The notes below the pieces were generated by a model. That model saw only the letters and a program-made list of their open reading frames with translations, made no database searches and was not told where the DNA came from. Shown here one piece after another: positions 9,127-15,673 of a DNA stretch of 39,473 nt. Every line of letters begins with the position of its first letter. Position 1 is the first letter of the stretch. The translations under genes were made by a program, and so were the position numbers. Origin of the DNA: Alphaproteobacteria bacterium (lineage in GTDB: Bacteria; Pseudomonadota; Alphaproteobacteria; GCA-2731375). Location: the NCBI GenBank assembly GCA_030746635.1, contig JASLMH010000020.1:1-39473 (forward strand). Direction: 5' to 3'.

Positions 9127-9708
9127 ATGACACTCGACGAGCACCAGGATGACGGCGGCTATCTTACCGGGCAGTTGCTGATCGCCATGCCGACCATGGG
9201 CGACCCCCGTTTCGAGCGGACAGTGATTTACATGTGTGCCCATTCGGCCGAGGGCGCCATGGGCCTGGTGGTCAACAAACTGGCGGACGAGATCGATTTT
9301 CCGGGATTGCTGGAGCAATTGGAAATCGAAACCGAAACCATCGTCAACCCGATCCGCGTGCACGTCGGCGGCCCAGTGGAAACCGGACGCGGCTTCGTCC
9401 TGCACACCACCGACTATCGTCAGGAATCGACCCTGGTGGTGACCGAAGAGGTCGGCCTGACCGCGACGGTCGACATCCTGCGCGCCATCGCCGAGGGCGG
9501 CGGCCCGCGGCGCTGCCTGCTGGCCCTGGGCTACGCCGGTTGGTCGCCGGGCCAACTGGACAGCGAAATCCAGGCCAACGGCTGGCTGCACGTACCGGCC
9601 GACCTGCCGTTGGTGTTCGACGACGATCTGCACGAGAAATGGACCCGGGCGGTGCGCAAGGTCGGCATCGACCCCTCGTTCCTGTCATCCGACGCCGGTC
9701 ACGCCTGA
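9127..9708 (+). CDS. YqgE/AlgH family protein (UPF0301)
   Basis: The 193-residue protein has the conserved family blocks: [57 protein letters not shown] and [21 protein letters not shown]. The biochemical role is unknown. The family was named from a Pseudomonas alginate regulator, but its members are widespread conserved proteins. The ATG has an AGGAA site with short spacing. Grouping with a peroxiredoxin and a DsbD-like gene hints at a link to redox or envelope homeostasis, which is inference from context only. Confidence 0.9.
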
Positions 9709-12130: not shown

Positions 12131-12746
12131 AGGCCTGCCGGTCGGGCTGTTGCTGGCCGGCGGCGCGGCCCGGCGCATGGGCGGCGGCGACAAATGCCTG
12201 CGGCCCCTGGCCGGCCGGCCCTTGCTGGCGCATGTGATCGAACGCCTGCGCGATCAGGTCGGCGAACTGGTGTTGAACGCCAACGGCGATCCGGCCCGTT
12301 TCGCCGATTTCGGCCTGCCCGTGGTGGCGGACGTGATCAGCGGTTCGGCCGGGCCGCTGGCCGGCATCCTAACCGGCATGGAATGGCTGCGGGCCCATCG
12401 CCCGGGCGCGCGCTGGCTGGCCACCTTTCCCACCGACGCGCCGTTCCTGCCGGCGGATCTGGTCGCCCGCCTGGCCGATGCGCTGAACCACCGGGATGCC
12501 CGGCTGGCCTGCGCCGGTTCGGCCGGCCGCTCGCATCCGCCGATCGGCCTGTGGGACGTGAGCCTGGCCGACGACCTGCGGGCGGCGATGGAAGGCGAGG
12601 GGCTGCGCAAGATCGATCGCTGGACGGCCCGGCACGGGGTGATCCGGGTCGACTGGCCGGACCGGCCCCACGCCCCCTTCTTCAACGCCAACCGGCCCGA
12701 GGATCTGGCCGAGGCCGAACGTCTGCTGGCCGCGCCGGCCGGCTGA
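12120..12746 (+). CDS. mobA: Molybdenum cofactor guanylyltransferase MobA
   Basis: This 208-residue nucleotidyltransferase joins GMP from GTP to molybdopterin to make MGD. Motifs are LLAGGAARRMGGGDK (11-25, GTP loop), GSAGPLAGILTGMEWL (76-91), FPTDAPFLP (103-111, with metal-binding D106) and NANRPEDL near the C-terminus. The chosen start is TTG 12120, with AAGGGCGGGG 4-10 nt upstream, because the MobA N-terminus normally begins a few residues before the LAGG motif. An in-frame ATG at 12060 would run 20 residues into fdhD coding sequence. It overlaps fdhD by 11 bp and the amidase gene by 1 bp, so the three are probably one operon. Confidence 0.88.
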   Translation: MNIEGLPVGLLLAGGAARRMGGGDKCLRPLAGRPLLAHVIERLRDQVGELVLNANGDPARFADFGLPVVADVISGSAGPLAGILTGMEWLRAHRPGARWLATFPTDAPFLPADLVARLADALNHRDARLACAGSAGRSHPPIGLWDVSLADDLRAAMEGEGLRKIDRWTARHGVIRVDWPDRPHAPFFNANRPEDLAEAERLLAAPAG

Positions 12747-13432: not shown

Positions 13433-13893
<461 letters not shown>

Positions 13894-13907
13894 GCCCCCT
13901 CTCTCTA

Positions 13908-14028: not shown

Positions 14029-14856
14029 CTAACCCGGCTTGCAGGCCACGAACAGGCCGCCGCCCAAGTCGCCACTGGTGATCCGGGCGACGAAGAACTC
14101 GTAGGCCTCGACATAGCGCCTATGCGCCGCCTCGCCGTGCTGGCGGACGGTGTCGTCCCGCATGCCGCGATACATCTCCAGCCGTTCGATCAGGATCTCG
14201 CGCCAGGCCACGGATAGATCGGACAGTTCGACGTCGTTGAAGCCGGCCTCGGCGATGTAGCGTCGGTAGGCCTCGGGCTCGAGCATCGATCGGGCGGCGA
14301 TGCCCTGGCGCAGGCGGTCGCGGGCGGCGCCATCCAGGCCCGGAAAGACCAGCCAGTCGGTGAAGGCCAGGCGGCCGCCAGGGCGCAGCACCCGGAACAG
14401 CTCGGCGAACAGGGCGGCCTTGTCGGCGATATGCAGGAAAGCCTCCTGGCTGATCGCGGCATCGGCGGAGCCGTCCGCCAGCGGCAGCCTGACGGCGTCG
14501 GCGTTGATCGGCGTGACCCGTTCGGCCAGCCCGACCCGGCGGTTCAGGCGGGCGCCGCCAATGGCCCGGCTGGTGGTCAGATCGACGCCGACGACCCGGG
14601 CGCCGTGCCGGTGGGCCAGGTAACGGGCCGGACCGCACAGGCCGCAGCAGACATCCAGCACCACGGCCCCGGCCGGCAGCTCGATGGCCGCCACCAGACG
14701 GTCGACCGCCGCCAGTCCGCCGTAATGGTCCTGGTCGTGGGGATAGAGATCCTCCGGCGCCAGCGGGCCGGTTGGCCGGCCCTGGCGCGCCAGGGCGGCG
14801 TTGATCTGCGCTTCCGTGATCGGATGCTGGTCGTAGAAATCCTGAACCGTCGTCAT
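14029..14856 (-). CDS. Class I SAM-dependent methyltransferase, dimethylglycine/sterol-methyltransferase-like
   Basis: The 275-residue product starts VQDFYDQHPITEAQINAAL and continues DLYPHDQDHYGGLAAVDRLV. Motif I follows in an unusual form, LDVCCGLCGPARYL (67-80), where family members normally have glycine at the second cysteine position. Next come VVGVDLT, INADAVRLPLADGSAD (motif II), FLHIADKAALFAELFRVL and RPGGRLAFTDW. This layout is that of small-molecule methyltransferases in the UbiE/sarcosine-dimethylglycine group; the substrate is unknown. ATG 14856 fits family N-termini but has a poor ribosome-binding site. A start at 14916, next to a TTTAAT box, is an alternative that adds 20 residues. 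A LexA-type box lies upstream, suggesting DNA-damage control. Confidence 0.75.
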   Translation of the reverse strand: MTTVQDFYDQHPITEAQINAALARQGRPTGPLAPEDLYPHDQDHYGGLAAVDRLVAAIELPAGAVVLDVCCGLCGPARYLAHRHGARVVGVDLTTSRAIGGARLNRRVGLAERVTPINADAVRLPLADGSADAAISQEAFLHIADKAALFAELFRVLRPGGRLAFTDWLVFPGLDGAARDRLRQGIAARSMLEPEAYRRYIAEAGFNDVELSDLSVAWREILIERLEMYRGMRDDTVRQHGEAAHRRYVEAYEFFVARITSGDLGGGLFVACKPG

Positions 14857-14931: not shown

Positions 14932-14946
14932 GAACATAAAAAGAAC
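14932..14946 (-). promoter_or_regulatory. SOS (LexA) box, alphaproteobacterial type
   Basis: Read on the minus strand, GTTC-TTTTTAT-GTTC is a perfect GTTC-N7-GTTC, the direct-repeat LexA site of alphaproteobacteria, with the T-rich centre typical of functional boxes. It lies 16 nt before the upstream candidate start (14916) and 76 nt before the chosen start (14856) of the methyltransferase, and overlaps a possible -35 TTGTTC with TTTAAT (14927-14922) as -10. It is about 260 bp from the divergent mraZ start. Confidence 0.6.
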
Positions 14947-15087
14947 AAACTTTCGCCGCATTGTTTGACTAGGCTTTCGCCGGTGAGGTCGGAATTGTTC
15001 TTCGCATGCCCCCATCTGGAAGCTCGATAACACTGGTTTGGATTTGATGATGACTTTGAATGCTAGGTTTTTTTCTATCCTTGTCCA

Positions 15088-15128
15088 TTGACGCCCATAA
15101 TATACCATGGTATCCCATGCGATCCCAT
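15088..15128 (+). promoter_or_regulatory. mraZ promoter region with four MraZ-box repeats
   Basis: CCCAT, ACCAT, CCCAT and CCCAT begin at 15094, 15104, 15114 and 15124, an exact 10-nt period with 5-nt spacers. On the minus strand each reads ATGGG or ATGGT, matching the TGGGN-N5 repeats bound by MraZ rings. A candidate promoter TTGACG (15088-15093), 17 nt, TATCCC (15111-15116) overlaps the repeats, as expected for autorepression of the dcw operon by MraZ. The -10 is weak. The rest of the 280-bp gap upstream (14947-15087) is AT-richer than its surroundings and holds no gene I can support. Confidence 0.72.
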
Positions 15129-15205: not shown

Positions 15206-15673
15206 GTGGCGCTGTTTCTGTCGCGGTTCGACAACAAGGTGGACCGGAAGGGCCGGGTCTCCGTGCCCGCGCCGTACCGCACCGCCCTGGCCGGTCAGGC
15301 CTTCGCCGGCATCGTCGCCTATCCCTCGCTGGTCTCCCAGGCGATCGACGCCTGCGACATGGCGCGCATCGAGGAACTGGCCAACGGCATCGACTCCTTC
15401 AATCCGTTTTCCGAGGAATACAGCGCCTTTGCCACCGCCATCCTGTCGCGCTCGCATCAGCTCCAATTCGACGGCGAGGGTCGCGTGGTCCTGCCCGAAC
15501 CATTGATCAGGCACGCCGGCATCACCGAGGTGGCCACCTTCGCCGGCCAGGGCGCCACCTTCCAGATCTGGTCGCCCGAGCGCTACGAGGTCTACGAACC
15601 GGAAGCCACCGAGCAGGCAAAGGAACAGGCGGCCAAGTTCGCGCTGAGCCGCCACAAGGGAGCGGACGAATGA
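15206..15673 (+). CDS. mraZ: Transcriptional regulator MraZ
   Basis: The 155-residue protein has two SpoVT/AbrB-like MraZ repeats: [20 protein letters not shown] near the start and [20 protein letters not shown] in the middle. MraZ forms rings that bind repeated boxes before its own gene and represses the division/wall cluster. The GTG at 15206 (MALFLSRF...) matches the usual N-terminus and follows a G-rich AAACGGGGGG site. ATG 15164 and GTG 15200 are in-frame alternatives; the former has no ribosome-binding site. It overlaps rsmH by 4 nt. Confidence 0.92.

Follow-up and report, generated by a model that had tools for sequence, protein, structure and literature searches.

The mraZ upstream region and its LexA-type box

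The window, i.e. the whole stretch of 39,473 nt analysed here, carries mraZ, the first gene of the dcw cluster, preceded by the RNase P RNA gene rnpB and a divergent methyltransferase gene (Table 1). In most bacteria the dcw cluster begins with mraZ, and to our knowledge it is poorly understood what controls MraZ and why it has been retained. A GTTC-N7-GTTC direct repeat with two perfect half-sites lies between the methyltransferase gene and mraZ. The original prediction of a LexA-type SOS box at this place was borne out in its exact position, with the repeat reading on the minus strand.

Table 1. Coordinates of features around the LexA-type box in the window
Feature	Position	Strand	Basis and remarks
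rnpB (RNase P RNA)	13434..13896	plus	Rfam RF00010, 265 bits
Class I SAM methyltransferase	14029..14856	minus	Transcribed away from mraZ; start may be earlier, at TTG 14922
LexA-type box GTTCTTTTTATGTTC	14932..14946	minus (reads 14946-14932)	GTTC-N7-GTTC, matrix score, conservation before mraZ
Flank AAACTTTCGCCGCATTGTTTGACTAGGCT	14947..14975		mraZ side of the box; conserved in the order in alignments and position profile
Predicted mraZ promoter TTGACG-N17-TATCCC	15088..15116	plus	Sequence comparison; -35 starts 156 nt after box start
MraZ-operator-like repeats (CCCAT and variants)	15094..15128	plus	Recur across the promoter with a 10-bp period; conservation seen in an alignment of 73 promoters
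mraZ, first dcw gene	15206..15673	plus	Start GTG 15206 by alignment; Pfam MraZ 2.3e-18

The bare 8-base pattern alone is weak evidence and not significant, with two matches in the window vs 0.85 expected and 106 matches genome-wide vs 65 for the reversed pattern. The second match in the window (12264-12278) has a mixed spacer, lies within an N-acetylmuramoyl-L-alanine amidase gene and is probably due to chance. Sequence context was taken for most listed genome matches, and among these the box at 14932-14946 is the only one whose spacer is devoid of G and C. Sites with GC-rich spacers are in their majority located within predicted genes; those whose spacers are richest in AT are mainly intergenic, their neighbours being recA, uvrA/ssb, gcrA, an operon that contains an ImuB-like gene, a PA0069-type radical SAM gene, and a small ORF followed by a gene that resembles argG in its translation.

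For a quantitative comparison with the genome's own LexA sites, a matrix was built on the lexA, recA, uvrA/ssb, and imuA sites of the same order. The recA, imuA, and uvrA sites have inflated scores because they were part of the training set, which did not include the window box. The latter reached 22.5 bits, ranking fifth among the 91 perfect-half sites of the genome, and thereby scores with the organism's own SOS sites; the runner-up site within the window had 11.05 bits. Only the sites of the small ORF, imuA, uvrA/ssb, and the radical SAM gene ranked higher, and the upstream site of recA scored lower (20.8 bits).

LexA and its motif in the order

A lexA gene is present in the source genome, where it runs off the contig end. 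A perfect box precedes lexA in 13/13 relatives and recA in 13/13 genomes with a recA match. As the box is found before recA and before lexA itself, the usual argument from autoregulation, GTTC-N7-GTTC can be taken as the working LexA motif of the order. Most genomes of the order have two sites at recA, a perfect box far upstream and a GTAC-N7-GTTC near-match at the promoter, 68-70 nt apart. Upstream LexA sites are therefore not unique to mraZ. In R. sphaeroides, LexA reportedly both stimulates and represses recA.

Two other sites in the source genome deserve mention in their own right. The cell-cycle regulator gene gcrA is preceded by a perfect box at a distance of about 100 nt (contig C238, about 9300-9314), and so are its counterparts in five relatives (G008, G005, G004, G009, and G010), whereas three further genomes have a site with one mismatch in this position (loci L125/L178 and L179-L190). 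GcrA might possibly be under SOS control in this order. At L015:1501-1790 (contig C35), the genome's top LexA box (29.8 bits) is located 38 nt before an 83-aa ORF upstream of the argG-like gene. The encoded protein has paired cysteines and looks zinc-ribbon-like by eye; searches of Pfam and NCBIfam gave no match.

The box stays with mraZ and not with the methyltransferase

A search starting from mraZ recovered a perfect box upstream of this gene in 15/15 genomes of the order. The methyltransferase gene is adjacent to mraZ in three of them, and the other 12 keep the box without it. There, the slot between rnpB and mraZ holds an enoyl-CoA hydratase gene, intact or decaying, or no gene at all, and rnpB is the usual upstream neighbour of the box wherever no gene is inserted. 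All of these states occur within genus g2, where the enoyl-CoA hydratase gene is intact in G011, broken in G001, or missing. The copy in G001 (contig C54, L193) is frame-shifted and truncated, with a similarity that jumps frame and ends at residue 152, and the box alongside is still perfect. Genomes of genus g2 with an empty slot have rnpB, on the mraZ strand, ending 26-175 nt from the box. In G013 (genus g4), the rnpB end is 18 nt from the box; the sequence at the old box position has decayed, and further upstream there is a perfect box that points the other way. Throughout the alignments of the order, the GTTC half-sites are invariant and the spacers variable.

The methyltransferase probably starts at ATG 14856 because orthologue similarity begins there, which places the box at a distance of 75 nt. 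Its nearest solved relatives are phosphoethanolamine N-methyltransferases, sarcosine/dimethylglycine N-methyltransferases also being near, and it stays under every specific NCBIfam cut-off among the matches listed. The gene is divergent and about 75-130 nt from the box in the source genus and two others. The original prediction had read the box as an operator of this methyltransferase, which would make it a new SOS gene, and the proposed comparison of orthologues gave a divided answer. The box is kept before the two closest orthologues, both mraZ-adjacent and from other genera (57% identity in G014, 55% in G012), and this, together with the short distance to the likely start, speaks for such a role. 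Against it stand the 12 genomes above, the wide occurrence of the box before mraZ in the class, and the homologues located elsewhere: a search of the contigs for the methyltransferase retrieved four, and the three inspected had no perfect upstream box. The two closest orthologues do not share the predicted overlap of the box with a possible methyltransferase -35. The box follows mraZ instead of staying with the methyltransferase wherever that is located, and its persistence where the gene is absent and beside a decaying gene in the slot led us to reject the methyltransferase as the primary target. We regard it as improbable that the box is chiefly its operator; the methyltransferase may be a divergent neighbour that is co-regulated via its position. 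The same prediction had added in passing that damage could affect the dcw side, and this proved to be the better-supported half.

As a separate observation, another family has an AT-rich perfect box, GTTCATATAATGTTC, that follows the end of a methyltransferase homologue at a distance of about 230 nt (L087:2524-2538, in match orientation).

Near-constant spacing to the mraZ promoter

Both distances, to the mraZ -35 and to the rnpB end, were measurable in 33 genomes, in all of which the box has the orientation seen in the window. The distance from box to mraZ -35 had a median of 154 nt (MAD 3) and was 156 nt in the source genome and seven others, while the distance to the rnpB end had a median of 88 (MAD 52); the variances of the two differ (P 4e-4, long-insertion genomes omitted). 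Moreover, space for a divergent protein gene is absent in 21 of these 33 genomes. Given the near-constant distance to mraZ and the variable distance to the other neighbour, the box is most likely an element of mraZ. When the regions were aligned on the -35, the resulting profile displayed the MraZ repeats and a sharp box peak 141-160 nt upstream. Families with the opposite box orientation have mostly shorter distances of 66-94 nt. Helical phasing of the spacing was weak (R 0.42 at 10.5 bp, 25 families), a signal on which we base no claim.

Other elements are shared just upstream of the mraZ -35 (15053-15087 in the window, with counterparts in L191, L198, L235, and L236). Part of genus g2 has a CtrA-like TTAA-N7-TTAA there, and family f30 a palindromic GGAATTACTTGTAATTCC.

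Alternatively, LexA might control a non-coding RNA whose start is close to the box and which runs either antisense towards rnpB or, as a short RNA, before mraZ. In many genomes the 3' end of rnpB is near the box, and no promoter has been assigned so far, both of which were counted in favour of this explanation. However, the distance to mraZ is tightly kept and that to rnpB is not, and the genomes of the order showed neither consensus pairs nor any other conserved RNA structure at the locus, so that a structured sRNA was rejected. The same holds for a small SOS peptide like SidA between box and mraZ, as small ORFs are no commoner there than in shuffled sequence. A LexA-controlled non-coding transcript seems unlikely.

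Occurrence across Alphaproteobacteria

The class-level sample consisted of 90 mraZ upstream regions, namely the 30 best mraZ matches and 60 hand-picked from the listed matches, the latter biased towards larger genomes. A perfect box was present upstream of the mraZ coding region in 51 of the 90, compared to 1.5 expected from dinucleotide shuffles, and the reversed motif was found in none of them. LexA-bearing genomes had the box in 50 of 80 cases and LexA-lacking ones in 1 of 10, a comparison whose Fisher value (0.002) is indicative only because genomes of one family are not independent. The sole LexA-lacking genome with a box has a GC-rich spacer, and in some seven additional LexA-bearing genomes a site with one mismatch occupies roughly this position. 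At the family level, a perfect box was detected in 31 of the 54 sampled families; its absence from the other 23 counts against its reading as an mraZ/dcw operator. The box is conserved in relatives and co-occurs with LexA, which, together with its score, supports the predicted LexA-type nature of the site, and its anchoring to the mraZ promoter across the class further weakens the methyltransferase reading.

That a regulator other than LexA, preferring a similar direct repeat, uses the site appears very improbable. The bare pattern is frequent in the genome and the LexA-lacking set comprises ten, mostly small, genomes, but the box is nearly absent from that set, and its spacer and flanks resemble the lexA, recA, and uvrA sites. 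A functionless chance match, for which one could cite the two window hits, was already disfavoured by the conservation in the entire order, the class counts, and the occurrence at one promoter distance, and is extremely improbable.

A putative LexA operator in the mraZ/dcw control region

Taking together what was computed for the site (LexA-like quality, conservation of perfect halves, co-occurrence with LexA, and a near-fixed distance to the mraZ promoter), the box is probably a LexA operator that serves the mraZ/dcw control region and is both conserved and old within Alphaproteobacteria. LexA binding, the direction of its effect, and the promoter acted on are inferred. In undamaged cells, LexA would sit on the box and repress transcription towards mraZ, whether by acting on an upstream start close to the box or, jointly with MraZ, at the promoter. 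Cleavage of LexA upon DNA damage would then change the output of mraZ, most simply by raising it, and MraZ, as regulator of its own cluster, might retune the division genes after damage.

Some 150 nt separate the box from the predicted mraZ promoter further downstream, which is distant for simple repression and counts against this reading. In the plainest model, LexA would repress an upstream start from which transcription reads into mraZ. A conserved promoter at the box was found on neither strand, which also speaks against the operator, and a sigma-70 promoter was rejected as the positional scan gave no consistent signal. With the tight spacing, LexA and MraZ might act jointly at a distance. 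A more far-reaching version, in which a class-wide damage switch places LexA about 154-156 nt from the MraZ-controlled promoter to act with MraZ or by DNA looping and not by covering the promoter, is rather doubtful.

Comparison with known systems

The same site before the division cluster in a large share of the class suggests an old and little-noticed link between DNA damage and division. If true, an SOS-repressor operator that is kept in much of Alphaproteobacteria and almost evenly spaced from the MraZ-controlled promoter would provide a direct transcriptional route from DNA damage to the division genes, in addition to induced inhibitors such as SidA. A literature search, with key subscription papers and supplements outside its reach, yielded nothing that joins LexA, mraZ, SOS, and Alphaproteobacteria. 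The main texts of recent Caulobacter SOS papers do not mention mraZ, which would count against the operator if Caulobacter has the box.

As an idea, the link between LexA and mraZ is not new: for Gram-positive gut bacteria, a published study proposed that an MraZ homologue is preceded by a LexA site, and B. subtilis LexA bound this site in EMSA (PMC3998124). There, too, a LexA site is assigned to mraZ, but the LexA motif and the phylum are different and the available text describes no fixed long spacing to an MraZ-controlled promoter. The extent and geometry of the link in Alphaproteobacteria appear unreported in the literature consulted. The dcw cluster of R. sphaeroides is preceded by UpsM, a leader giving rise to a terminated sRNA and described as special to Rhodobacteraceae (PMC5089854). 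This system likewise has a regulatory region, about 270 nt long, before mraZ, but differs in the sRNA of its leader and comes without mention of LexA (PMC5089854).

Compared to the alphaproteobacterial LexA operators of recA, lexA, uvrA, and imuA, the window box has the same half-sites, spacing, and AT-rich spacer and falls within their score range; unlike those, it lies well upstream of the predicted promoter and not inside it, and before division genes. SulA and the Caulobacter protein SidA, both SOS-induced division inhibitors, also couple DNA damage to division via LexA. However, these are induced proteins that act on the divisome, whereas in the present case the target of LexA would be the division cluster's own control region.
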